Translations under genes and position numbers: made by a program
The notes under the pieces: model-generated
Databases searched by the model: none
Told to the model about the DNA's origin: nothing
The model's input: only the letters and a program-made list of their open reading frames with translations
NCBI GenBank assembly: GCA_902728285.1
Contig: CACVBU010000939.1
Location: 868,001-932,000, forward strand
DNA: 64,000 nt
Source of the DNA: Clytia hemisphaerica
Lineage: Eukaryota; Cnidaria; Hydrozoa; Leptothecata; Clytiidae
Direction of reading: 5' to 3'
Shown here: piece after piece, positions 10,934 to 58,086 of the stretch
How positions within the stretch are numbered: position 1 is the stretch's first letter
How the letters are laid out: every line of letters starts with the position of its first letter

Positions 10934-11215
10934 CCCTGGGGGGGGTGTACTAGGGTTGGCGGATGAGGGGTTTGTGCGGACCTCTAAAAACAGACCTTTA
11001 GAGAGACTGTTTATTTCTGAAAAGGTGACCCTTAGAGAGACTTTTTTGAAAAGTTTTCTTCGATTTTTGAAAAAAGTAGTACCCTTGTAGATACTTTTTT
11101 ACAATTTTTCACTTAAAATCAAACCCTCAGAGACACTTTGAAGGGTGAAAAAACCGACCCTTACCGTCCGCACATACCCAGCACCCAATTTTTGCCTAAG
11201 TACTCCCCCCCCCGG
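10934..11215. mobile_element. Poly-G-ended MITE with 8-bp TSD
   Basis: The element begins CCCTGGGGGGGG, then GTACTAGGGTTGGCGG. It ends with a C-run and CGG. AGCTTACT lies on both sides (10926-10933 and 11216-11223), an 8-bp target duplication. Internal ACCCTTAGAGAGACTTTT repeats and a near-terminal CCGCACATACCC recur in the other copies. An 8-bp duplication suggests a hAT-like origin. Confidence 0.8.
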
Positions 11216-12010: not shown

Positions 12011-12795
12011 GGGAGTTTCTAAACATCGACCAGAAATGGCGACCACGACCAGCGACCACGACCGGCGACCAGATAAATTTGGGTTATCGAGTTTTTCCTC
12101 TTTCTCCACCTTAGAGTCTTTCTCCTATGATCAATTATTTATCGAATTGAAGAGTAAAGCTCACCCTTGTCTCATTCACAGTAATTATAAAGCCACGTGC
12201 AAAACGTGTAGAACAGCCATTTCAACACTCTTGGAGCTTGAATGGGGTGTCAATTTCTATCCTCTTGTATTTTCGGCATCAAATTAATCAATGGCAAATT
12301 TTTTGCTGAAATTCATTTAAGAAGCTTTATATTTGATCATCAGATCATTATTTTGTCAAAATAAGTCATTTTGACAATGTAAGGACAATAGAATAATTGA
12401 TGAGATTGATATCTCTAAAACTGCCCTTCCCAGCTTTTGCCTACTGACAATTTCTATCTATTTATACTAAGAGCATCTCATTCAGCATAATTAAAATATT
12501 TGGTGTAATAAAGTTTACAGGCATCACACTTAATTGCCCTGTCAATATTTTTGTCAAAAAGTGTCACTTTGTCTAGAAAATGACTGGTAACGTCAAAGGT
12601 CACTTTTAGTATTCTAAGCTAGAGTAATTTTCTCAGCCACGTGCTCAGTGGTTCATTTGAAAGCCACACCAGGACTCGATTTGGATGTTCTCTACGGTGG
12701 AGAGAGCAGATAAACTCGATAACCCAAATTTATCTAGTCGCCGGTCGTGGTCGCTGGTCGTGGTCGCCATTTCTGGTCGATGTTTAGAAACTCCC
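12011..12795. mobile_element. Long-TIR element with 9-bp TSD
   Basis: The left end GGGAGTTTCTAAACATCGAC and its inverted copy match for about 85 bp with about one mismatch. CAATTAGAC sits directly outside both ends (12002-12010 and 12796-12804). The TIR contains GGCGACCACGACC sub-repeats. Long TIRs with a 9-bp duplication are typical of Mutator-like or Merlin-like elements; this is inference because no transposase is present. The 785-bp interior has no credible gene. Confidence 0.88.
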
Positions 12796-24054: not shown

Positions 24055-25475
24055 CAAAACCTTTCAATAATTAGTCTTTCTAATAATAGGCCGAGCTCAA
24101 ATAGAGAATTTGCCGTTAGCTTAATAATCTGAGTTATGATATGTTCAGATCCTCTTCTTTAAAGATGGTTTTCACTCTCTAAACACAAGATAAGATACAA
24201 AGAGGAATTAGACAAAGGAATACAACTTCTACCCCGAAACCGAAAGGCCTTAATCCTTTTTCACTCGTTCGCCAACCGTTTGCGCCAGTACATACAGGTA
24301 CCGGCCTTGAACGACTTTCGGTTTTTCGCGCGAAAATGGTTAGCCAAGGGATTATGAAGGTCAAAAAACATCACGGCTCTTTTTGCTCCGAGCCTGTGAC
24401 TATTTATTGTGTAGTCGCTTTAGATTTGTTGTACTATATTATTGACTTTTTACAAACCAGCGGAACAAACCCGGGATTAATCCACAGGAACAAAGTGTTG
24501 ACATCTCTCTAAAAACCGTATGTTTCCGAGCTAGTACCTAACTTCATATTTAATTGAAGTACTTTGAAAAATGGTCGAGTGAGTCAGACACTGACTTCAT
24601 GTTTTCCAAAAGTCCCAGCAATACATTTTTAAATCAAATTAAGAGGATTTAAGGAACCTAAAAAAAATGATTTCGAAAGTAGAACGGTCAACAAACAAAT
24701 ATTGATTTTGAAAAAATATTAAAATTAAAACAACCGCGAAAAACTTACTGCATAATGTTCATTCACTATTTGAAGGGTTTGACTTGAGGATCTTTAAAAT
24801 CTTGATGGTACTGGAGGAATCAAATATAAAAAGTAGGGCAGCGAATCTAAAAGAATAAAAAAAAATTATGCTGGTTAGGGAAGACTACAGCTTAAAAGTT
24901 TCACATTTAAGCTTTGCTAGCAGTTTACTATCGTTTGTTATTAGTATCATGTCTTTTTTGGATAACTCAAAATAATGCCGTTTACAATATTTGTAAGCCC
25001 GTTATAATTCTGTGCGAAAAGAATGTTGAAAATTCTTCAAATACCCAGGTTGGACGTATCTGTATCTCAAGAGCCAGGCAGAGTTGTTGTGATGACAGAT
25101 TTTGAGGCTTTCACAAATTGTTAAAAAGTGAAAAAATGAGGGGTCATATTTATTCAAAGGGTGTTGACGACTGAAGCGATATTTTGCACATTTCATTCGG
25201 CTAGCGCACAGTGTTCCGCTATAAAGTGTATATTATACTTGTTGACTTATGGGTATTAGTCAGAGAGGATAGGAAATGGATAGCCTAAGGATCTTTTAGC
25301 TGCCAATTATATTGCATCCGTCTGTTCTTTAACAATCCAGATACGTAAGTCATAAGTTGTCCTTTTTTCTCCATTCACCCAATGCTAAAAATGAGTTTTC
25401 AGGGGGTTTTCGCCGAAATGCAGCCTAGATTAGTAAAATAGTCGCTGATGACGCTGCAACTGACGCTTAACTGAC
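24055..25475. other. No firmly supported gene
   Basis: A more GC-rich patch at 24230-24330 could be a promoter or exon. Near 25033-25114 one frame reads LDVSVSQEPGRVVVMTDFEA before a stop, after a possible acceptor (AAATACCCAG); it might be a terminal exon of the 23655 candidate. On the minus strand an acceptor-like ATTTGATTCCTCCAG sits near 24815. None is strong enough to call. Confidence 0.3.
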
Positions 25476-25495
25476 GCTCACTCAAGGGGGGGGGG

Positions 25496-26053
25496 TCGGT
25501 AGTAAAATCTCAGACATATATGAGTAGTAAAAGGATTTTTACGAATTTTTACATACCACCACCCAGACTCTTGGTAGAGGTATTTTACTACCCTGGTAGT
25601 AAAAGTTTTTGGGATAATTTGGCCTATTTTTTGGTTGCTTTTCGGAATGATTTTACAAAAAAAGCTGAAAAATCATTATTTCTGTGACACATTTTTCATT
25701 TAGTGCAAAAATTAATGCTTTGCCCTTAGAATTAAAGTCTTTTTTATATTCACAAAAAATTTCGAGAATTTTTTGTTTGCGGCAAAAAACTTTTACAACA
25801 GAAATTTTTTTCAAATTATAAAAATTCAGATTTTTCAGAAAATCATCCAAAAAATTAAAAGAATTACAAAAATAGCTAAAATTTGCTAATTTTACCAGTT
25901 TTAACTACCCAGGTAGTAAAATTTTTTCAACATTTAATACATAGTAACCACCCATTTTAGTATTTAACTACGCTGGGTAGTAAAATTTGTTCTCAATTTT
26001 TCGTCACACCACCACCGTAGTAAACGTCATTATGTCTGAGATTTTACTACCGA
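25496..26053. mobile_element. TIR element inserted in the left end of the 9.1 kb unit
   Basis: TCGGTAGTAAAATCTCAGAC at the left is perfectly inverted at the right (23 bp), flanked by G-run and C-run. The interior repeats GGTAGTAAAA motifs in both orientations. It separates the G-run end of the large element from that element's 76-bp repeat, so it inserted into or beside that end. The exact boundary within the G-run is not resolvable. Confidence 0.75.
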
Positions 26054-26059
26054 CCCCCC

Positions 26060-26135
26060 TGTGCATAGCACTACTTCGTCACATATCCTTACTTCGTCTC
26101 CTATTGTTATTTTCTTTTCTACGTCATAATTTATG
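26060..26135 (+). repeat. Left 76-bp inverted repeat of the 9.1 kb element
   Basis: Inverted counterpart of 34467-34542. It starts TGTGCATAGCACTACTTCGT and ends ACGTCATAATTTATG. Confidence 0.9.
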
Positions 26136-26697
26136 GTTAAAAATTAAACAGCTGAATATACATGGTTTCTACTAGATTATTGTTAATCATTTAAACATGA
26201 CGTAACATATGCTATTATGCAAGCTAAGAAGTTGATTGACAGATATATTTTTCTAGAATACATAGAATAATTACCGTTAGGTGTGGAAATGATGGGCGCA
26301 GAGGTAAATAAAAAACATATTTTGACATTATACATTTCTTTAACCATGAACATATAAACGACTACACATATCTTTTATTATCTCTTTGAAGCGAACTTCG
26401 TTGCCGCCTGTATTTCAAAATTGGTATGAAAAATCCGACAATATTCCGTCATAATTTTATTTCTTTGAATTATTTAGGTAAAAGGATTGATAGAGCTTGA
26501 AAATTACTCCTAATGCACAAAAAAATATTTTCGGATTTTTTCACAAGTTTGCAATATATTTGATCAACATTTTCAACTCTGAAATGCAGAATTTCAACTG
26601 CGTGTATACTTTTGAATCTCTTTTGTCACTCCAATAATTTTTTTTTGACTTGAAAAAAAATAGCTTGCCAACGTTGAGAGCCTGTACCATAAGAATA

Positions 26698-27968
26698 CAG
26701 CACCCGACCCCGAGAATGTAGGTGAAATTTGAATCAGACCTGAGAGATGTAGATTTGCATTTAAAAAAATATTGAATGTTTTAAACGAAATTTTGAACTC
26801 CCAAAATCCTTTCCCAGGGGTTAGTTTCATTACTTTTGATAGATAGGCTAATTTTTTTGGTCCTTGAAGTTGACTCCCATTTTCGTTATAACCCCCAGAA
26901 TGTAGGTTTGGTTTTATGGCTTTAAATCTAGTAATAGTAAAAATGTTGGTATTTTTTCGATTGAATTAATTATAACAGGAAATTTTAGAAATATTTTATG
27001 CCAAAACAATATTCTAAAGAGCTTTTGTTATTCTGAAAATTGGATTTTTTCGCTTTTTAACCCCCAGAATGTAGGTGAAAAGATTCGGTTGCTGAGAGCG
27101 AAATTTCAGTATTCATCAGAAATTTTTGTTCTCTAAGTGAAATTCATACTTTAGAAATATACTCTGACAAAAAATTAACAAAGATATTAATTTTATCGTG
27201 CTACAAATGATGAAAAGTAAAAGAAAGGACGAAAAGAAGAGACTAGAAAGTTGTTTTTATTTTGTAGTTTGAAGATTCTGTGTCAAAATATGTGAATAAT
27301 GTAACAACACCCTTGCCTCACAGCCCCGGTGGAACTTTTCCCACATCAGGTCAAAAAATTTCTACTAAATTCCCAATGGGAATAAAAATTATGTTGTTCC
27401 AAACTTAGGCAAATTTTCTGATTGGGCTGAGGTCCCAGCGGGTCTGGGACACGTCATAAAAGCTTAAAATGCCAACATTAATCATCTCTCAGGTAATACT
27501 TTCATGTTATTAAAGTACAACAAAAAAGTTTTATATAATTTGACAGACGGGTTATGAAAGCCCCTAAATTGTAGGTCAACTAACCCCAAAAGGTAGGTCT
27601 AACATTTTCGTTAAAATATCTAACTTAGAACAGTAAATATTGAAATGGACTATTTTCCACCTTTCCTTAGTTCATTAGGAATAAGAAAATACCCTATCAT
27701 CATAAGTTAATTCCAATAGATTTCGATTTAGAGAGGATTTATTTAAGAAATGTCTCAATTCGAGTAGTATCAAATCAACTTCGATTCAGATTTTCGCCTG
27801 ACAAAAATCAATTCAAGTTAAAATTTTATCTCTAGAAATAATCAGTAATATGTAACAGTATCCTCTGAAACAACTTTTTATGAAGTTGAACTATCGTTAG
27901 GGCTACCATGCTAAAAAACGAGAAACCTACATTCTCGGGGTTTACTACATTCTCGGGGTCAGGTGCTG
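26698..27968. mobile_element. Nested TA-flanked element, CAGCACC ends
   Basis: Ends CAGCACCCGACCCCGAGAAT and the inverted copy, each with TA outside (26696-26697 and 27969-27970). The motif CCCCGAGAATGTAGGT and variants recur inside (near 26709, 26892, 27060, 27930 and 27950). The TA duplication and CAG start fit Tc1/mariner-like MITEs. No ORF of note. Confidence 0.75.
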
Positions 27969-28344
27969 TATCGAAATTAGAATGTGACACTTTCTAAAAT
28001 TATTAGACACTTTTAAGTCAAAATTTAGAAATAAAGAACAACATAGACTTTTGTCGAAGTTTTGACGTTGTTAGCAAGGTATTCCCAAGTGGTATATCAC
28101 CAAAATCTATTGTTTCATTTTATGCTTTTAACGAGGCGGCAACGAAGCTAGCAACCCTTTCTAAAAAAAGACAAAGGAGATGGATGTCCAGTCGTTTATA
28201 TGTTCATGCTTTAACTGACCAATCAAATCACTACTATACATGTAACATTTTGAAGAGTGAATGCACGATGAACAATCGTGATTGAAATTCTACAGAAATA
28301 TCTCGAAGAAACCATAATACGCATGCGCAGGTGCTCTACACATG

Positions 28345-31300
28345 ATCACATGATTTGAAAGTTAGATTTTGCAGATCAGTCAAAAAAATTCATCCTTACT
28401 TGGTCACCATTCATTGCGTAAGAGTTCTTTAAAACTTTCACAAAAATTTATATTCCCACTACACGGTCACGTGATTTAAAAGTTAGATTTTGCAGATCAG
28501 TCAAAGAAATTTATCCTTACTTGGTCACAATTCATTGCATAAGAGTTCTTTAAAACTTTCACAAAAATTTATATTCCCACTACACGGTCACGTGATTTAA
28601 AAGTTAGATTTTAAAGATTAGTCAAAAAAATTTATCCTTACTTGGTCACATGACTTGAAAGTTAGAGTTTGCAGATAAGTCAAAAAAGTTTATCCTTACT
28701 TGGTCACATGACTTGAAAGTTAGATTTTGCAGACCAGGCAAAAGAATTTATCCTTACTTGGTCACATGACTTGAAAGTTACATTTTGCGGATCAGTCCTT
28801 ATCAGTCAAAAAAATTTATCCTTATTTTATCACATGACTTGAAAGTTAGATTTTACAGATCAGTCAAAAAAATTTATCCTTACTTGGTCACATGACTTGA
28901 AAGTTAGATTTTGCAGATCAGTCCTGATCAGTCAAAAAAATTTATCCTTACTTGGTCACATAACTTGAAAGTTAGAATTTACAGATCAGTCAAAAAAAAT
29001 TATCCTTACTTGGTCACATGACTTGAGAGTTAGATTTTGCGGATCAGTCCTGACCAGTCAAAAAATTGTATCCTTACTTGGCCACATCGCTTGAAAGTTA
29101 GAATTTACAGATCAGTCAAAAAAATTTATCCTTACTTGGTCAAATGACTTGAAAATTAGATTTTGCAGATCATTCCTGATCAGTCAAAACAATTTATCCT
29201 TATTTGGTCACATGACTTGAAAGTTTGAGTTTGCAGATCAGTCAAAAAGATTTATCCTTACTTGGTCACGATGCATTGCGTAAGAGTTCTTTAAAAAGTT
29301 CGCAAAAATTTATATTCCCACTACACGGTCACGTGATTTAAAAGTTAGATTTTAAAGATTGGTCAAAAAATTTTCATTACATGGTCACATGACTTGAAAG
29401 CTAGATTGTGCAGATCAGTCAAAAAAATTTGTCCTTACTTAGTCACATGATTTGAAAGTTAAATTTTGCATATCAGTCAAAAAAATTTATCCTCACTTGG
29501 TCACATGACTTGAAAGTTAGACTTTGCAGATAAGTCAAAAAAGTTTATCCTTACTTGGTCACATGACTTGAAAGTTAGATTTTGCAGACCAGGCAAAAAA
29601 ATTTATCCTTACTTGGTCACATGACTTGAAAGTTAGATTTTGCAAACCAGGCAAAAAAATTTATCATTACTTGGTCACATGACTTGAAAGTTACATTTTG
29701 CGGATCAGTCCTGATCAGTCAAAAAAAATTATCCTTATTTGGTCACATGACTTGAAAGTTAGATTTTGCAGATCAGTCGTGATCAGTCAAACAAATTTAT
29801 CCTTACTTGGTCACATGACTTGAAAGTTAGATTTTGCAGATCATTCCTGATCAGTGAAAAAAATATATCCTTACTTGGTCACATAACTTGAAAGTTAGAA
29901 TTTACAGATCAGTCAAAAAAATTTATCCTTACTTGGTCACATGACTTGAAAGTTAGATTTTGCAGACCGGGCAAAAAAATTTATCCTTATTTGGTCACAT
30001 GACTTGAAAGTTAGATTTTGCAGATCAGTCAAAGAAATTTATCCTTACTTGGTCACCATTCATTGCGTAAGAGTTCTTTAAAACTTTCACAACAATTTAT
30101 ATTCCCACTACACCGTCACGTGATTTAAAAGTTAGATTTTAAAGATTAGTCAAAAAAATTTATCCTTACTTGGTCACATGACTTAATAGTTAGATTTTGC
30201 AGACCAGGCAAAAAAATTTTTCCTTACTTGGTCACATGACTTGAAAGTTAGATTTTGCAGACCAGGCAAAAAAATTTATCCTTACTTGGTCACATGATTT
30301 GAAAGTTAGATTTTGCAGACCGGGCAAAAAAAATTATCCTTACTTGGTCACATGACTTGAAAGTTAGATTTTGCAGATCAGTCAAAGAAATTTATCCTTA
30401 CTTGGTCACCATTCATTGCGTAAGAGTTCTTTAAAACTTTCACAAAAATTTATATTCCCACTACACGGTCACGTGATTTAAAAGTTAGATTTTAAAGATT
30501 AGTCAAAAAAATTTATCCTTACTTGGTCACATGACTTGAAAGTTAGAGTTTGCAGATAAGTCAAAAAAGTTTATCCTTACTTGGTCACATGACTTGAAAG
30601 TTAGATTTTGCAGACCAGGCAAAAAAATTTATCCTTACTTGGTCACATGACTTGAAAGTTACATTTTGCGGATCACTCCTGATCAGTCAAAAAAATTTAT
30701 CCTTACTTGGTCACATGACTTGAAAGTTAGAATTTACAGATCAGTCAAAAAAGTTTATCCTTACTTGGTCACATGACTTGAAAGTTAGATTTTGCAGATC
30801 AGTCAAAAAAAATTATCCTTACTTGGTCACATGACTTGAAAGTTAGATTTTGCAGATCAGTCCTGATCAGTCAAAACAATTTATCCTTATTTGGTCACAT
30901 GACTTGAAAGTTAGAGTTTGCAGATCAGTCAAAGAAATTTATCCTTACTTGGTCACATGACTTGAAAGTTAGATTTAGCAGACCAGGCAAAAGAATTTAT
31001 CCTTACTTGGTCACATGATTTAAAAGTTAGATTTTACAGATTAGTCAAAAAATTTATCCTTACTTGGTCACCATTCATTGTGTAAGAGTTCTTTAAAATT
31101 TTCACAAAAATTTATATTCCCACTACACGGTCACGTGATTTAAAAGTTAGATTTTAAAGATTAGTCAAAAAAATTTATCCTTACTTGGTCACATGACTTG
31201 AAAGTTAGATTTTGCGGATCAGTCCTGACCAGTCAAAAGATTTTATCCTTACTTGGCCACATCGCTTGAAAGTTAGAATTTACAGATCAGTCAAAAAAAT

Positions 31301-32999
31301 TTATCCTTACTTGGTCAAATGACTTGAAAATTAGATTTTGCAGATCATTCCTGATCAGTCAAAACAATTTATCCTTATTTGGTCACATGACTTGAAAGTT
31401 TGAGTTTGCAGATCAGTCAAAAAGATTTATCCTTACTTGGTCACGATGCATTGCGTAAGAGTTCTTTAAAAAGTTCGCAAAAATTTATATTCCCACTACA
31501 CGGTCACGTGATTTAAAAGTTAGATTTTAAAGATTGGTCAAAAAAATTTTCATTACATGGTCACATGACTTGAAAGCTAGATTGTGCAGATCAGTCAAAA
31601 AAATTTGTCCTTACTTAGTCACATGATTTGAAAGTTAAATTTTGCATATCAGTCAAAAAAATTTATCCTCACTTGGTCACATGACTTGAAAGTTAGACTT
31701 TGCAGATAAGTCAAAAAAGTTTATCCTTACTTGGTCACATGACTTGAAAGTTAGATTTTAAAGATTAGTCAACAAAATTTATCCTTACTTGGTCACATGA
31801 CTTGAAAGTTAGATTTTGCGGATCAGTCCTGACCAGTCAAAAGATTTTATCCTTACTTGGCCACATCGCTTGAAAGTTAGAATTTACAGATCAGTCAAAA
31901 AAATTTATCCTTACTTGGTCAAATGACTTGAAAATTAGATTTTGCAGATCATTCCTGATCAGTCAAAACAATTTATCCTTATTTGGTCACATGACTTGAA
32001 AGTTTGAGTTTGCAGATCAGTCAAAAAGATTTATCCTTACTTGGTCACGATGCATTGCGTAAGAGTTCTTTAAAAAGTTCGCAAAAATTTATATTCCCAC
32101 TACACGGTCACGTGATTTAAAAGTTAGATTTTAAAGATTGGTCAAAAAAATTTTCATTACATGGTCACATGACTTGAAAGCTAGATTTTGCAGATCAGTC
32201 AAAAAAATTTATCCTTACCTGGTCACATGACTTGAAGGTTAGATTTCGAAGATCAGGTTAAAAAATTATCGTTACTTGGTCACATAACTTGAAAGTTGGA
32301 TGTTGCAGATCAGTCAAAAAATGTTAGCCTTACTCGGTGACATGACTTAAAAGTTAGATTTTCCAGATCAGTCCTGATCAGTCAAAAAAAAATTATCCTT
32401 AGTTGGTCACGATGCATTGCGTAAGAGTTCTTTAAAAATTTCGCAAAAATTTATATTCTCACTACACGGTCACGTGATTTAAAAATTAGATTTTACAGAT
32501 TAGTCAAAAAAATTATCCTTACTTGGTCACATGACTTGAAAGTTAGATTTCGTAGATCAGGCAAAAAAATTTATCTTACTTGGTCACGGGGTATTGTTGG
32601 AGCGTTCTTTAAAAATTTCGCAAAATTTTATATTCCCACTACACGGTCACGTGATTTAAAAGTTAGGTTTTGCATATTAATTCAAAAAAAATTTATTACA
32701 TGGTTACATGACTTGGAAAGTTAGATTTTGCAGACCAGTCAAAAAATTTATCCTTACTTGGTCACATGACTGGAAAGTTAGATTTTGTAGATCAGTCAAA
32801 AAAATTTCTCCTTACTTGGTCACCATAAATTGCGTAAAAGTTTTTTAAAAATTTCGCAAAAATTTATATTTCCACTACATGGTCACGTGATTTAAAAGTT
32901 AGATTTTGCAGATTAATTCAAAAATTTATCATTACTTGGTTACATGACTTGAATGTTAGATTTTGCAGATTAGTCAAAAAAAATTATCCTTACTTGGTC
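28345..32999. repeat. 58-60 bp satellite array with GGTCACATGAC core
   Basis: The basic unit (~58 bp) runs TTGGTCACATGACTTGAAAG, TTAGATTTTGCAGATCAGTC, then an A-run and TTTATCCTTAC. Variants include an 11-bp insertion (CCTGATCAGTC) and a ~121-bp dimer whose first half reads GGTCACCATTCATTGCG and second half GGTCACGTGATTTAAAAG. Higher-order copies are evident. By eye there are about 70-80 units. The array is non-coding. Confidence 0.97.
31216..32190. repeat. 604-bp higher-order repeat within the satellite
   Basis: The block starting GGATCAGTCCTGACCAGTCA at 31216 recurs at 31820, 604 bp later, with matching unit order through about 32185. A related block begins at 29041. This shows duplication of multi-unit segments, as expected from unequal exchange. 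Confidence 0.8.
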
Positions 33000-33540
33000 A
33001 TGTTTACATCAAACACTACTTGGTCACGTTTTTTCATTCACAAGAAATGTTTATAACTTCGACCAACAACTCCAAACACTACTTGGTCAAGCCTTTTTAC
33101 TCATAAGAAATTTTCCTAATTTGGACCAAAAACTCCAAACACTAATTGGTCAAATTTTTTTATCCTTAGAATGCTCATATTTTGCACCAAAACACCAAAC
33201 ACTACTCGGTCACGCCTTTTCACTCATAAGAAATGTTCATTATTTAGACCATAAACCACGCCTTTTCACTCATAAAAAATGTTCATAGTTTGGTCTAAAG
33301 ACATCAAACACTACTTGGTTAAGTCTTTTTTCTCATTTGAAATGTTCATAGTTTGGACCAAAAAGACCAAACACTGCTTTGTCTCGCCAATTCACTCATA
33401 AGAAATGTTCATAATTTTGATCAAACAAACCAAACACTACTCCGTCGCGCGTTTTTCCTCATCAGAAATGTTCATAGTTTGGATCAAAAACACCAAACAC
33501 TACTTGGTCGCGACTCTTCACTCCTTAAACATTGAGATAT
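33000..33540. repeat. Second, ~61 bp satellite array
   Basis: About eight diverged units with CCAAACACTACTTGGTCACG, then CACTCATAAGAAATGTTCAT and AGTTTGGACCAAAAA. It abuts the first array and shares the TTGGTCAC anchor, suggesting common descent. Confidence 0.85.
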
Positions 33541-34466
33541 TTTTCACATAAAAACCCCACCAAACGTTACTTAATCATATCTTTCATTAAAAGCTCTCCT
33601 CACTTCCATTATTCGTCCAAAAATTTCTTCGATATTTAAAGAATTTTACGACATATTGAAAGTTCAGGTGAAGAGGAGTTGCTAACTTGCACTTTTAGTA
33701 CATTTGCGGCCGAAACACCCGACGAGACAGAAAGAGATATACCTTTTTCTATTGAGATTTGTTAAGAATATTCAATTTTTTTTTAAGCTTTAGGGTGTTC
33801 TTTCTTTTGAATCTTAACCCTAAAAATATTATTGAAATTTTTACGGCGATCTTTAACCGGTATGACCGATTTTAAGGGATCCCAACCGTGATCAGGATAG
33901 GATAGAGTGATGTGTCGAAAACGAAAGTGTCTCAGAACTTGTGACCTGGTTGATGTATGTATCAAAAAACTTCTTTCTTCTACATTTTGACTTGTCATAA
34001 GGAGACTTTATCATTACTTTTAGAGATACTAAAGAAACGCTACACAGATAGTGATCTGTGAAAACTAATTTATTTAAAATTATTTAAAAAATAATGTCAA
34101 ATTCGATTCCATTATTTTATAAATTTTCTTGTGCCGCTTCTTAGAAGCCGTATACAGTACGTTCTTTATAAAGTTTTTGACATTGAGATTTCAACCATTA
34201 CTTTTTGCTAGACGGAACAAGAAAGCGATCTTCCATTCACTTTAATAGTTTGTTTGTTAACACCTTTAAACAAAGAGAGAGAGATCAACCATAGAAGACT
34301 ATTTATTGTTTCATTTGTTTATTAACACCTTCACATGAAAGAACAATTTTCTTGTTTAATTTCAACAGCTATAAAGGTGTTACAGAACAATACAATTAAA
34401 AAAAAGCAAGTAGAAACCACCTCTAATCTCAAGATCAATCAGAAATAATTTATGCGTTTATTCATG

Positions 34467-34542
34467 CATAAATTATGACGTAGAAAAGAAAATAACAATA
34501 GGAGACGAAGTAAGGATATGTGACGAAGTAGTGCTATGCACA
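34467..34542 (-). repeat. Right 76-bp inverted repeat of the 9.1 kb element
   Basis: Inverted counterpart of 26060-26135, followed outward by CCCCCCCCCCTG and GCTCACT. Confidence 0.9.
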
Positions 34543-34561
34543 CCCCCCCCCCTGGCTCACT

Positions 34562-35360
34562 ACGTTCACTTAGCATAGTTATTTCTAAACCAAAATCGTG
34601 GTTTTCCCAATATTATTATTATCCCCGTTTTGACTTATTTCCCTGATTTGTGAGTTCAAAAAAACGCCTGTCCTACTACATTCTATTGCCAAAAAATGAC
34701 ATTCCTCGATTTGTCTCTTTTAGTATTGGCTAAATCGTGATATTGTTTCGCAAGTTTCTGTTTGATTGGGACAATACCTTCACACAGTTCAGATATAAAG
34801 CCTCATGGATATGAGGTTTTAGTTTTAAAACTTGTATCTAAAAATAGAGGCTGTGAAATACTTCTTAGTGGGAAATAAAACCATTTTCTTTGCTTAAGTT
34901 CTGTTTTCGTGCGTTTGAAATTTTCTTTCTTTAAAAGGAAATAGGAGGATAAGGTTTAAACTGAATTAGCGCAAATTGAAAACAAATGTCTATTGAGTTA
35001 AAAAAAAACCTCATCCGTCATGTAAAATAGACACGAAAATGAAATTAATCGTTCTCGCACGAATATCTTGATTTTTCGAAGTGGTCTTCTATCATAATCA
35101 AACTACAGGCGCGCGCACTTCTTTTTGTTCTTTAGAAGAAAAGCTTAAGTGCCAGACGGTATCACGCTATGAGGCTTAAAATATTTTCAAATTTATTTCT
35201 TTAATTCTAATAGCGAGCGCTTTGAAATATTCTAATCTTCTTTTCTTGAAACATCTTTATTTCTGAAGTAGAGACTAAAAATAGACTAGTAACTGTTTCT
35301 CATTTTGATAGCCTCTGTTGTTATATCTCTTTGTAGATACATTATCAGATAACAATTTAG
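34562..35360. other. No supported gene; possible upstream part of a candidate gene
   Basis: Unique AT-rich DNA. If the plus-strand candidate at 35361-36415 is real, earlier exons and a promoter should lie here or inside the 9.1 kb element; none was recognised. Confidence 0.3.
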
Positions 35361-43665: not shown

Positions 43666-43910
43666 CACCCGGAGGGGGGCTCGGAGGGGGGTACTAGGGT
43701 TGGCGGGTGAAAGGTATGTGCGGATGGGACCTCCAAAAACCGACCCTTAGAGACCTTTGCTGAAAAGGCGACCCTAGAGACTTTTTTGAAAAACTTTCTT
43801 TGATTTTTGAAAAACTACCTATCCTTAGTGAGACTTTGTAGGGTGAAAAGACCAACCCTTACCATCCGCACATACCCAGCACCCATTTTGCCTAAGTGTC
43901 CCCCTAGGCT
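43666..43910. mobile_element. Poly-G-ended MITE copy
   Basis: Contains GGGGGGTACTAGGGTTGGCG, ACCGACCCTTAGAGACC and CCGCACATACCCAGCACCC, very close to the 10934-11215 copy. The boundaries are approximate. Confidence 0.7.
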
Positions 43911-45340: not shown

Positions 45341-46547
45341 CACGTTTTTTTTTTTAAGAAACTAGTTTTACCAAGCAGCCTCAATGTTTCTTAAGAAATC
45401 GGCCTTTTGAGCGGGTCGTTGTAAAACATGGAGTAGCTCCATGGAGTACTCCAATGGAGTACCTATTGGAGTACTCTAAAAATATTGCAGACCAGATTTT
45501 AGATTGCCACAAGAGGAAAATAAAGACCTGTATAATTTTGTATTTGCTCTAAAACCACTCTGTAGCAAGAATGTGGCTTTCATGTTGGTCTCTTTTTATA
45601 TCCTTTCATGTCATCTGCATCACATTGAGTATAAAATTCTCATATCAAAGAAATAAGTTGGCGGACTCCATTTATTGTGATTGTCTTATTATTTTGTTAA
45701 TTAAAGTGTATTTTGTCAATAAAATGACAATGAATAATTTAATGCTCTAAAATCCCTCTGTAACCTCTCTCACAGACTGTCCCCAACTGCCATTTCATAT
45801 CCAACCATACTACCTGCATCATATTGAGTATAATAAAAATTCCTTTTAGAAATAGGTTGATAAGCTATGTATTCTATGATTGTCACAATATTTTCTTTAA
45901 AAAAGTCAATCTGTTGACAAAAGGACAAAAGAAAAATATTGCTTAAGAAAGCTCTAGTGCCCTACTGGTGTTACATAAATAATATAACACATAATACTAT
46001 ATACAATTACACTATTATGTGTTATTATAATGTGTTTGATATAGAGCTATTCTGCAAGCTAAATCTGGTCTGTTAATTGTAGAATCAACAAAGATTTTTA
46101 AGCAGAGAGTGTGCGCTATATGAGCTTTACTGCCAGAAATGATGGTAGCCATTTTTTCACAAACAAATACTTGAGAAATTCTTTTGATTGCTATAAATTG
46201 GAAGTTTACAGCTGCTGGAAAAGGTTGATTATCAAATTTGTGATATTCATCGCTCTGACAGGTATTTTAGGGGGTACTCCATTAGGTACTCCATTGGAGT
46301 ACTCCATGGAGCTAATCCATGTTTTACAACGACCCCTTTTGAGCCTTAAATGTTTCTTACATGTTTCTAAACTTTTTGACATAATCAGCCTTATGAAAGG
46401 CTGGATTGGAAGGTTCTTAAAAAAAACGAATTAAAAAATGTTTATTTTCCCATTCTCAGCCTCAGCATGTTTCTTAGATGTTTCTTAGTTTTTAGACATT
46501 CTGAGCCTCGTGTTTCTTAAAAGTGTGTTTCATAAAAAAAAAACGTG
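45341..46547. mobile_element. TA-flanked MITE interrupted by a nested element
   Basis: CACGTTTTTTTTTTTTAAGA at the left and AAAAAACGTG at the right, with TA at 45339-45340 and 46548-46549. Removing the inner element and one target copy leaves about 275 bp, the usual family size. The internal CCTCAATGTTTCTTAAGAAA and AGCCTCGTGTTTCTT blocks belong to this family. Confidence 0.85.
45413..46335. mobile_element. 923-bp long-TIR element with 9-bp TSD, nested
   Basis: GGGTCGTTGTAAAACATGGA and about 40 further bases are inverted at the right end with about three mismatches. CTTTTGAGC lies directly outside both ends (45404-45412 and 46336-46344). The TIR contains CTCCATGGAGTACTCC palindromes. The interior holds two diverged copies of a ~200 bp segment (near 45551 and 45749, sharing CACATTGAGTATAA). 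A 9-bp duplication and long TIRs fit Mutator- or Merlin-like elements. No transposase. Confidence 0.9.
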
Positions 46548-49237: not shown

Positions 49238-49406
49238 AAGAATAACAGCGATTCTCGAAAGTTTGTGAAAGTTGCTTTTGAAAGAAACTTGTGTCGTGTG
49301 TATCAGAAGACAACGTGCTCTAAAAAGGAAGGGAACAAGAAAAAGTATTTTTGCAGAACTTTTTGGAGAAACTTTGGAATAAATTCGTGCAATCTTTTTT
49401 GTAAAA

Positions 49407-50324
49407 ATGTCGCTGATGAGTGAAGTTATGTTACAAAATTATATGGCAGACGGTTGGTCTAGTGATGGGAGAAGTTCGAGCTGTAGCAGCAGCCAGTCCA
49501 GTGAAAGTGGAAGCAGCCTTGGAAATTTCAGTACAGGTTTTTCTTCCTTTAATGACTATTTTGGACTCTCAAATTTATTGAGTAATGTGAAAATCTCCGA
49601 CGACAATCCTTTACTTCAATCAACTCAGAAAAATCTGTCACTTTTGCAACGTGCTCGACGACAAAGTTGGGCGTCCGATGGCAGTGACAATGCAGCTGTA
49701 CTCTCGCCTACCATCGAATCTCAACACTCTTACGACCGATTCGATATGAACAACAACGACTCTAAATTTCCGTCACGCCTTCCACACTCAGTTCGTGACC
49801 ACAATCTTATCAATTCAGCTTATCCACCGCAAAACGATTCAAGAGCTGACAAATTGGGTAAGCAACCTTTGATTATGCCCCCTTCTCCTCCAGCTACCAA
49901 TCAGCCTATCAGTATGCCCCTCCCGCCGCCATCTCAACCACAAAACCGTGGGGCCTCTACTAACAGCAACAGTAATAACAACAACAACAACGGGGTTCAA
50001 GTTTGTGTTTTCTGTCGAAACAACGGAGAGAGTGAGAGTGTTTATACCAGTCACGTATTGAAAGACACTGACGGTCGGACTTCTTGCCCGATCTTACGTG
50101 CTTACACTTGCCCGATTTGCAAAGCTAACGGTGATAACTCTCACACTATCAAATACTGCCCAATGAATCAAAATGCTCGTATGATGGGTCAAAATGGAAA
50201 TAACCAAGGAAATGCTGGCCTCTTCCCAAGACCACCCTTCCGCGCCCCATTTCCACCACCACCTAACATGCCTGCTGGATTAACTCAACCAAACTTCCAA
50301 AGAAACAAAAATTCATTCCGTTAA
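49407..50324 (+). CDS. nanos: Nanos RNA-binding protein, complete and intronless
   Basis: Nanos is a cytoplasmic translational repressor that acts with Pumilio and recruits CCR4-NOT deadenylase to target mRNAs, classically in germ cells. The 305-residue frame has the diagnostic double CCHC finger: C200, C203, H216, C227, then C235, C238, H246, C251, with the family spacings 2-12-10 and 2-7-4. Residues 45-58 ([14 protein letters not shown]) resemble the vertebrate NOT1-interacting motif. Other regions: Ser-rich 22-47, Asn tract 186-195, Pro-rich 157-178 and C-terminal 274-290. The ATG has A at -3 and an in-frame TAA lies at 49380-49382, so the start is secure. No intron interrupts the frame. 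Confidence 0.97.
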
Positions 50325-54083: not shown

Positions 54084-54544
54084 AGTACTAGACTAGCAAA
54101 CTAGTCTGTTAATTAATCATGTCAGAGGGCGGGAACATAAAGGCGGCGTGTGTTTGCTAGAATAGGAGCTGCGTAGGAGAGCGAGCAAAAGTTGGGGAGA
54201 GGTAATCTGACACCCCATGTAGAAATTTTCTTCCGACACGCTAAAGCTCTGAAGGTCGGGAAAATTTTCAATATTGGACCGCTCCTTTAGAGCTTTAGCG
54301 TGGGCGGCCGCCAACACGCCATCGGAATATCAGATAAGGGGAGAGGCTGCTGATCAGCCCTTTCCGCCGACAAAAGTTCTTTCTACGCTTACCTAACTCC
54401 TACGCTCACTTTTCCCGCGTGATGCCGTTCTAGCCCGACTGGCGTGCCAGTCTACTAAAGTACAATCATGGTCGTAATATTTTAGAAAAAAGGGAAATTC
54501 CCACGAAATCTTATAGCCACGATTGATTTGGAAGCGCTCTAACT

Positions 54545-55551
54545 CGAGGGGTAAATCACTTCGAAAAAAGCGTACGAAATGATTTTTGATTTTTGATTTT
54601 TTTGTGATTTTTTGATTTTTTCTGTGATTTTTTGATTTTTTTGTGATTTTTTTGTGATTTTTTGATTTTTTGTGATTTTTTTGATTTTTTTTTTTTGTGA
54701 TTTTTTGATTTTTTGATTTTTCTGTTTTGTTTTTTTTTGTGATTTTTTGATTTTTCTGTGATTTTTTTTTTGTTTTGATTTTTTTTGTGATTTTTTTTTT
54801 TTTTGATTTTTGATTTTTTTGTGATTTCTTTTTGATTTTTTGATTTTTTTCTGTGATTTTTTTTGTGATTTCTTTTGATTTTTTTTATTTTTTTTTCTGT
54901 GATTTTTGTGATTTTTTGTGATTTTTTTGTGATTTTTTTGATTTTTTTTGTGATTTTTTGTGATTTTTTGTGATTTTTTGTGATTTTTGATTTTTTTTTT
55001 TTTGTGATTTTTTGATTTTTTGTGATTTTTTTTTTTTTGATTTTTTTTTTTTTTTTTTGATTTTTTTTGTGATTTTTGATTTTTTTTTTTTTGTGATTTT
55101 TTTGTGATTTTGTGATTTTTTGTGTTTTTTTTTGATTTTTTTGTGATTTTTTGATTTTTTATTTTTGTGATTTTTTGTGATTTTTTGATTTTTTTGTAAT
55201 TTTTTTATTTTTCTGTGATTTCTTTTTGATTTTTTGATTTTTTTCTGTGATTTTTTTGTGATTTCTTTTAGATTTTTTGATTTTTTTTTGTGATTTTTTT
55301 GTGATTTTTTGATTTTTCTGTGATTTTTTTGTGATTTTTTGATTTTTCTGTGATTTTTTTGTGATTTTTTGATTTTTTTGTGATTTTTTGTTGTTTTTTA
55401 ATTTTTTATGATTTTTTTTTTTTTGATTTTTTTGTGATTTTTTGATTTTTTTGTGATTTTGTGATTTTTTTGTGATTTTTTTGTGATTTTTGATTTTTTT
55501 TGTGATTTTTCTAAGAAGTGTACGAGATTTTTTCGAGTAATTTACCCCTCG
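54545..55551. mobile_element. TIR element whose interior is a T-rich array
   Basis: CGAGGGGTAAATCACTTCGA at the left is inverted at the right (TCGAGTAATTTACCCCTCG) with small differences, and both ends contain GTACGA beside the array. CTCTAACT lies directly outside both ends (54537-54544 and 55552-55559), an 8-bp duplication. All between is a simple repeat of GATTTTTTTGT-like units. Confidence 0.85.
54574..55508 (+). repeat. GATTTTTTTGT simple-sequence array
   Basis: About 930 bp of GATTTTT and GTGATTTTTT units with variable T-run length. The plus strand is almost free of C, and A occurs singly inside GAT. Extreme strand asymmetry; the run lengths are likely to be unstable. Confidence 0.95.
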
Positions 55552-57767: not shown

Positions 57768-58086
57768 CTCGGGGGGGGGGGGGTATTAGGGTTGCGAGCT
57801 GACGGGGAGAGGGGTGCCGCCCGACTTTCGAACTTTGGACCCTTACCGGGACTAAAAAGAAGAAAACAAAGGAAAATTTTCCGACCCTTAGCGGGACTAA
57901 TTTGACCAATTTTGACCAAATTTCGATCTTTCAGGGGGTAAAAAGTTGAAATTTTTCCGACCCTTACTGGGGCTGAAATTTGATTTTCTGATTTTTCCGA
58001 CCCTTAGCGGGACTTTGGAAAAAGGTACCCTTAAGGGCGGCACATACCGTACCCTCCATTTTGCCTAAGTACCCCCCCCCCCCGGG
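57768..58086. mobile_element. Poly-G-ended MITE with 8-bp TSD
   Basis: GAATTATA lies on both sides (57760-57767 and 58087-58094). The interior has GGTATTAGGGTTGCGAGCTG, CCGACCCTTAGCGGGACT repeats, and CGGCACATACCGTACCC near the right end. Confidence 0.82.

Follow-up and report, generated by a model that had tools for sequence, protein, structure and literature searches.

An inverted-repeat element enclosing satellite arrays, apparently inserted in the terminal C-run of an older transposon in Clytia hemisphaerica

It has long been asked how satellite arrays originate and how they spread to new sites on chromosomes. The question is raised here by a stretch of 64,000 nucleotides from the hydrozoan Clytia hemisphaerica (assembly GCA_902728285.1, contig CACVBU010000939.1, positions 868,001 to 932,000; this whole stretch is called the window in the following, and all positions are counted from its first letter), in which two tandem satellite arrays lie between the arms of an inverted repeat. 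Judged from the sequence, the structure of this unit supports well its prediction as a non-autonomous element with terminal inverted repeats (TIRs) that encloses satellite arrays. On balance, we consider it probable that it is a non-autonomous transposon of 8,483 bp located in the right C-run of an older miniature inverted-repeat transposable element (MITE), that the duplication GCTCACT outside both belongs to this MITE, and that the satellite most likely grew inside the element.

The satellite element (26060-34542) ends in TGT...ACA, and its two arms are complementary at 76/76 positions and separated by 8,331 nt (Table 1). Tandem repeats between the arms total 5.2 kb in two arrays, referred to as satellites A and B. 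A nested element, bounded by TTTAA at 26339-26343 and 28210-28214 and with arms that are 72.8% alike over 81 alignment columns, is separated from the left TIR by 0.2 kb without tandem repeat and from satellite A by 0.13 kb. An earlier note, based on the letters of the window, had described the identical 76-bp repeats, about 5.2 kb of two satellites, the nested TIR element and GCTCACT at both outer ends, and these descriptions hold. In a self-BLAST of the window, 90 of the 126 matches were listed. A possible extension of the TIRs past 76 bp was rejected: a 25-bp subterminal match (2/500 shuffles as good) lies at unequal offsets, 27 versus 47 bases inward.

With TIRs at both ends and no transposase domain found outside the array, the element has the features of a non-autonomous class II transposon. 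A six-frame Pfam search of 25483-28400 and 33000-34554, the sequence on either side of the array at 28401-32999, gave no match at the curated cut-off; the best hit below it had an E-value of 0.0075. In six frames, the nested element matched nothing in Pfam at E ≤ 1, none of ten flanking open frames matched Pfam at the curated cut-off, and Rfam and tRNA scans of the window returned no matches. Separately, the motif CCCC(G/C)AGAATGTAGGT occurs several times and in both orientations at 26695-27971 of the nested element.

Within 28300-33560 we located 85 monomer junctions (up to three mismatches), mostly spaced by 57-58, 63 or 68 bp. For consensus building, 82 of the 84 monomer intervals were grouped, with the odd spacings of 26 and 109 bp left out, into a58 (n = 51), a68 (n = 14), b63 (n = 11) and B63 (n = 6). 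The a68 and a58 consensus sequences are separated by a 10-bp insertion, b63 and a58 have in common mainly the 21 bases up to the core, and B63 has little in common with the other groups beyond TACTTGGTCAC. All 44 exact + strand copies of the word TTACTTGGTCA in the window lie inside the element, with none on the - strand, and exact satellite motif words were found nowhere else in the window. A diagonal scan of the array revealed blocks of 464 bp that are 99.6% identical at a spacing of 604 bp, blocks of 371 bp (99.2%) and 219 bp (100%) about 2,175 bp apart, and blocks of 445 bp (97.8%) 1,881 bp apart. Near-identical blocks at set spacings point to duplications inside the array, several of them recent, as expected for an expansion in place.

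Each TIR carries two units, CACTACTTCGTCAC and ATCCTTACTTCGTC, at a distance of 18 bp and with the core TACTTCGTC. Of 5,000 shuffles, one had as good a self-repeat, as had 45 of 5,000 76-mers from the window. The core word, which within the window occurs only in this single TIR pair, resembles the core TACTTGGTC of the satellite consensus sequences. Among 3,000 random 76-mers drawn from the window outside 25400-34600 and 54500-55550, the score of the TIR was reached by seven against a58, four against a68 and two each against b63 and B63, and none equalled its joint score, which combined a58 and B63 only. Letter shuffles scored as well as the TIR in 2/3,000 cases for a58 and likewise in 2/3,000 for B63.

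Since the core is common to TIR and monomers and the internal duplications are recent, growth inside the element is favoured over captured cargo. The satellite probably started as a TIR-like motif and expanded on the spot, a course also proposed for the transposon Tetris (see below). The earlier note had regarded the satellite as cargo of a non-autonomous transposon; the TIR element containing the arrays stands, but capture is disfavoured by the TIR-like core and the internal duplications. A pre-existing genomic satellite caught between two TIRs and passively carried would fit either nesting order and would agree with the weak conservation of the core within some monomer groups. We nevertheless hold it unlikely, as the core is common to the TIR and the consensus of every monomer group and exact satellite words are confined, within the window, to the element.

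Several observations weigh against growth of the satellite from a TIR-like motif. In a first, weaker shuffle test, 1/200 (satellite A) and 8/200 (satellite B) shuffles scored at least as high as observed. Other sequences of the locus also score well: the nested element reaches 15 against a58, above the 13 of the TIR, the stretch 33540-34466 reaches 15 against B63, the same as the TIR, and the MITE reaches 13 against B63. The core is clearly more conserved than the rest of the monomer in b63 only (junction versus rest: a58 0.910/0.878, a68 0.964/0.955, b63 0.992/0.911, B63 0.847/0.850), and the least conserved 16-column windows of a58 overlap the part that resembles the TIR. The exact core TACTTGGTC occurs 47 times for 85 junctions, 11 of which read CTACA(C/T)(G/C)G, and a position that is C in the TIR units is G (47) or A (2) in the satellite core.

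A more far-reaching idea, to which we assign a low probability, is that the satellite is an amplified field of putative transposase-binding sites, with its 85 junctions built around variants of the TIR core. If true, helper transposase would be drawn to the array or sequestered by it, and the array would persist through selection on transposition instead of growing as neutral junk; several monomer types would then have evolved around one protein-binding core. As an observation in its own right, satellite A contains 43 of the 44 TCACATGA and 11 of the 14 TCACGTGA sites on the + strand of the window (expected counts in satellite A, 1.06 and 0.54). We take these E-box-like sites to be tied to bHLH factors, for which satellite A is a possible sink.

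A further inverted-repeat unit of about 0.58 kb, here called the outer MITE and not spelled out in the earlier note, occupies the interval from the left GCTCACT to the left 76-bp repeat. Its arms (25490-25518 and 26031-26059) are complementary at 29/29 positions and, when extended, in 33/34 aligned columns. On the + strand, the order is GCTCACT-CAA-G10-TCGGTAG...MITE...CTACCGA-C6-TGTGCATAGC...GCTATGCACA-C10-TG-GCTCACT. If the satellite element is removed in thought, the right end of the MITE (C-run-TG) mirrors its left end (CAA-G10), and GCTCACT lies outside both. The earlier note had placed G-run and C-run termini outside the 76-bp repeats. Both runs are present (G10 at 25486-25495, C10 at 34543-34552), but the bases that adjoin the TIRs are C6 on the left and C10 on the right, both C on the + strand. 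This is a direct repeat like a target duplication and not a continuation of the inverted repeat.

A repeat of at least 7 bp at two random places, with a freedom of ±3 bases per side, was found in 142 of 20,000 random pairs, so that GCTCACT alone is moderate, suggestive evidence. For comparison, three elements with G-run and C-run ends were chosen by eye from the run list, the remaining runs being left out. Two of them (10938-11213 and 57771-58083) show the end layout of the MITE with exact 8-bp duplications, AGCTTACT and GAATTATA, located 3-4 bases beyond the G-run and 2-3 beyond the C-run; in the third (43674-43904) only a 6-mer is in common, at other offsets. Based on the restored MITE ends and the same layout in two of three comparison elements, we attribute GCTCACT to the MITE, with the satellite element located inside this MITE. 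The heptamer, which the earlier note had read as the satellite element's own target duplication, is thus probably the target-site duplication of the outer MITE. In the simplest reading, the satellite element would have inserted into the terminal C-run of a separate, older MITE.

Target duplications of hAT-like elements are 8 bp long, versus an exact 7 bp for the outer MITE. A 23-bp word of the MITE TIR, searched in the window with up to five mismatches, matched only the MITE's own two arms, and shorter words gave scattered matches in the window with 2-3 mismatches. A point against the proposed insertion is that the candidate target duplication of the satellite element sits in a homopolymer, where its length is not measurable (at most 6 if only C). 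The case shows that a target duplication can be credited to the wrong element if one transposon lies within the homopolymer at the end of another.

Alternatively, the whole could be a single element of about 9.1 kb with ends CA-G-run-TGTGCATAGC and the duplication GCTCACT, into whose left G-run the MITE inserted later, with the satellite as captured cargo. Read inward, the right end is indeed CA-G10-TGTGCATAGC, GCTCACT flanks the whole, and other elements of the window also have G-run ends. We regard this arrangement as quite unlikely, because it leaves the MITE, which would lie between a G-run and TGTGC, without any target duplication; moreover, with both runs merged, a left G-run of about 16 bases would be expected, but it has 10, although such runs slip. 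Finally, an inverted repeat left around a satellite array by rearrangement or repair, without any transposon, would agree with the one copy seen and with a possible target duplication that is merely a C-run, but is very improbable given the exact symmetrical TGT...ACA termini, the direct C flanks and the defined place in the MITE.

The favoured nested arrangement includes four inferred points: a past transposition, the nesting order, the descent of the satellite from the TIR and the existence of a helper transposase. The satellite element would have inserted into the right-terminal C-run of the older MITE of about 0.58 kb. Inside the element, a TIR-like unit (core TACTT(C/G)GTC) would have undergone tandem duplication, and unequal exchange or a comparable mechanism may then have enlarged the array and given rise to several monomer types. 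Each time a transposase provided from elsewhere mobilised the element, the array would move along with it. A single copy is seen in the 64-kb window, which weighs against this scenario in that transposition itself has to be inferred. Perfect ends, an end-like motif in the array and recent internal expansion would nevertheless make this locus a compact case for the origin of a satellite in the end sequence of a transposon.

Table 1. Features of the satellite element and the surrounding MITE (window positions)
Feature	Position	Strand	Basis
GCTCACT, left of the two 7-bp copies, attributed to the outer MITE	25476-25482	+	sequence, scan
Outer MITE, main part, CAA-G10-TCGGTAGTAAAATC ... GATTTTACTACCGA-C6	25483-26059	.	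complementary arms
C6 adjoining the left TIR, in the C-run of the MITE; possible target duplication of the satellite element	26054-26059	+	
Left 76-bp TIR, starting TGTGCATAGC, with two 18-bp units with core TACTTCGTC	26060-26135	+	
Nested 1.87-kb element between TTTAA copies, imperfect arms	26344-28209	.	
Satellite A, mixed monomers of mostly 57-58, 63 and 68 bp	28346-33000 (4,655 bp)	+	
Satellite B, mostly 63-bp monomers; shares with satellite A mainly the core CTACTTGGTCAC	~33010-33523 (514 bp)	+	
Stretch without reported tandem repeat, ~0.9 kb	33524-34466	.	repeat scan, six-frame Pfam
Right 76-bp TIR, terminating GCTATGCACA	34467-34542	-	complementarity
C10 + TG, putative displaced right terminus of the outer MITE	34543-34554	.	
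GCTCACT, right copy of the 7-bp duplication	34555-34561	+	

Searches for further copies gave no match of 26060-34560 to plasmids, and no exact match of one TIR word or one satellite word in viral contigs (0 and 0); one word from the TIR of the MITE had no exact match in contigs of prokaryote genomes. These misses say little, as none of these collections is one of animal genomes. Motif words searched in the literature gave one match, an unrelated Babesia survey.

Elsewhere in the window, the ends of six other inverted-repeat pairs were inspected. Two of them, the long-TIR elements 12011-12795 and 45413-46335, have 9-bp flanking duplications, CAATTAGAC and CTTTTGAGC, and are presumably Mutator-like by duplication length. 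Their TIRs contain 13-bp tandem repeats, so that tandem units inside TIRs are not confined to the satellite element in this genome. A second tandem array, TTTGTGATTTT-like and with periods of 11, 19 and 30 bp, is located at 54590-55510. The open frame 49383-50321, about 15 kb from the satellite element, matches zf-nanos (Nanos zinc-finger) with an E-value of 4.1e-26, a domain that indicates animal DNA. Nematode DNA, considered at first, found no support in word counts, as neither TTTTCAG (19 copies, 16.1 expected) nor CTGAAAA (15 copies, 12.6 expected) is clearly enriched.

Among known transposon classes, the TGT...ACA ends recall integrase-like elements. TG...CA type ends are found in Ginger and, only occasionally, in GingerRoot, according to the sections consulted (PMC2836005, PMC10045372); the 76-bp TIR falls within the 40-270 bp given for Ginger1, and duplications of 4-6 bp would fit the C6. 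However, Ginger termini follow TGTNR (PMC2836005), whereas the termini here read TGTGC, with C instead of R as fifth base, and the TIRs are flanked by C only and not by CCGG/CCGT (Ginger1) or RTATAY (Ginger2). No Gypsy-integrase-like transposase was found outside the array; a non-autonomous copy would be without one anyway. Because of its termini and flanks, a Ginger-type classification was rejected. For a Mutator (MULE) element, a duplication of 8-10 bp, the length applied in PMC4079207, stands against a left C-run of six bases and would need contraction of the run. Foldback elements of the Tetris type have long TIRs made of tandem repeats, whereas the TIR here measures 76 bp and the big arrays lie between the TIRs.

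The nearest precedent found is Tetris itself, a non-autonomous foldback transposon of Drosophila virilis. The parts of its description considered here report no transposase found, TIRs of up to 1,735 bp and target duplications of 8-10 bp, as well as tandem repeats of about 220 bp that have 37 bp (about 80%) in common with the outer TIR and expand into satellite-like arrays of up to 66 copies (PMC4079207). Our element resembles Tetris in being predicted as non-autonomous, in having tandem repeats with a stretch in common with the outer TIR and in the lack of a detected transposase. It differs in that the repeats of Tetris lie inside long TIRs, whereas here arrays of 57-68-bp monomers in one orientation lie between TIRs of 76 bp. 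Following work on Galileo, whose internal tandem repeats are said to carry additional transposase-binding sites, the Tetris authors suggest in the same passages that such repeats may be extra binding sites (PMC4079207). By analogy, Galileo may serve as a model for the proposed core as a putative transposase-binding site, although its repeats lie within the TIRs. Satellites within or derived from miDNA4 and Xstir, MITEs of Xenopus, are reviewed in the portions available of PMC12628747 and PMC9659126. Like our element, these are non-autonomous TIR elements with satellite monomers or arrays in their interior or descended from them; miDNA4, in contrast, is described as a Tc1/mariner MITE, and the element here has 8.5 kb with two arrays totalling 5.2 kb. 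Satellite-bearing TIR elements are a known kind, from which the Clytia element differs by its short TIRs, the one-orientation arrays between them and its several monomer types.
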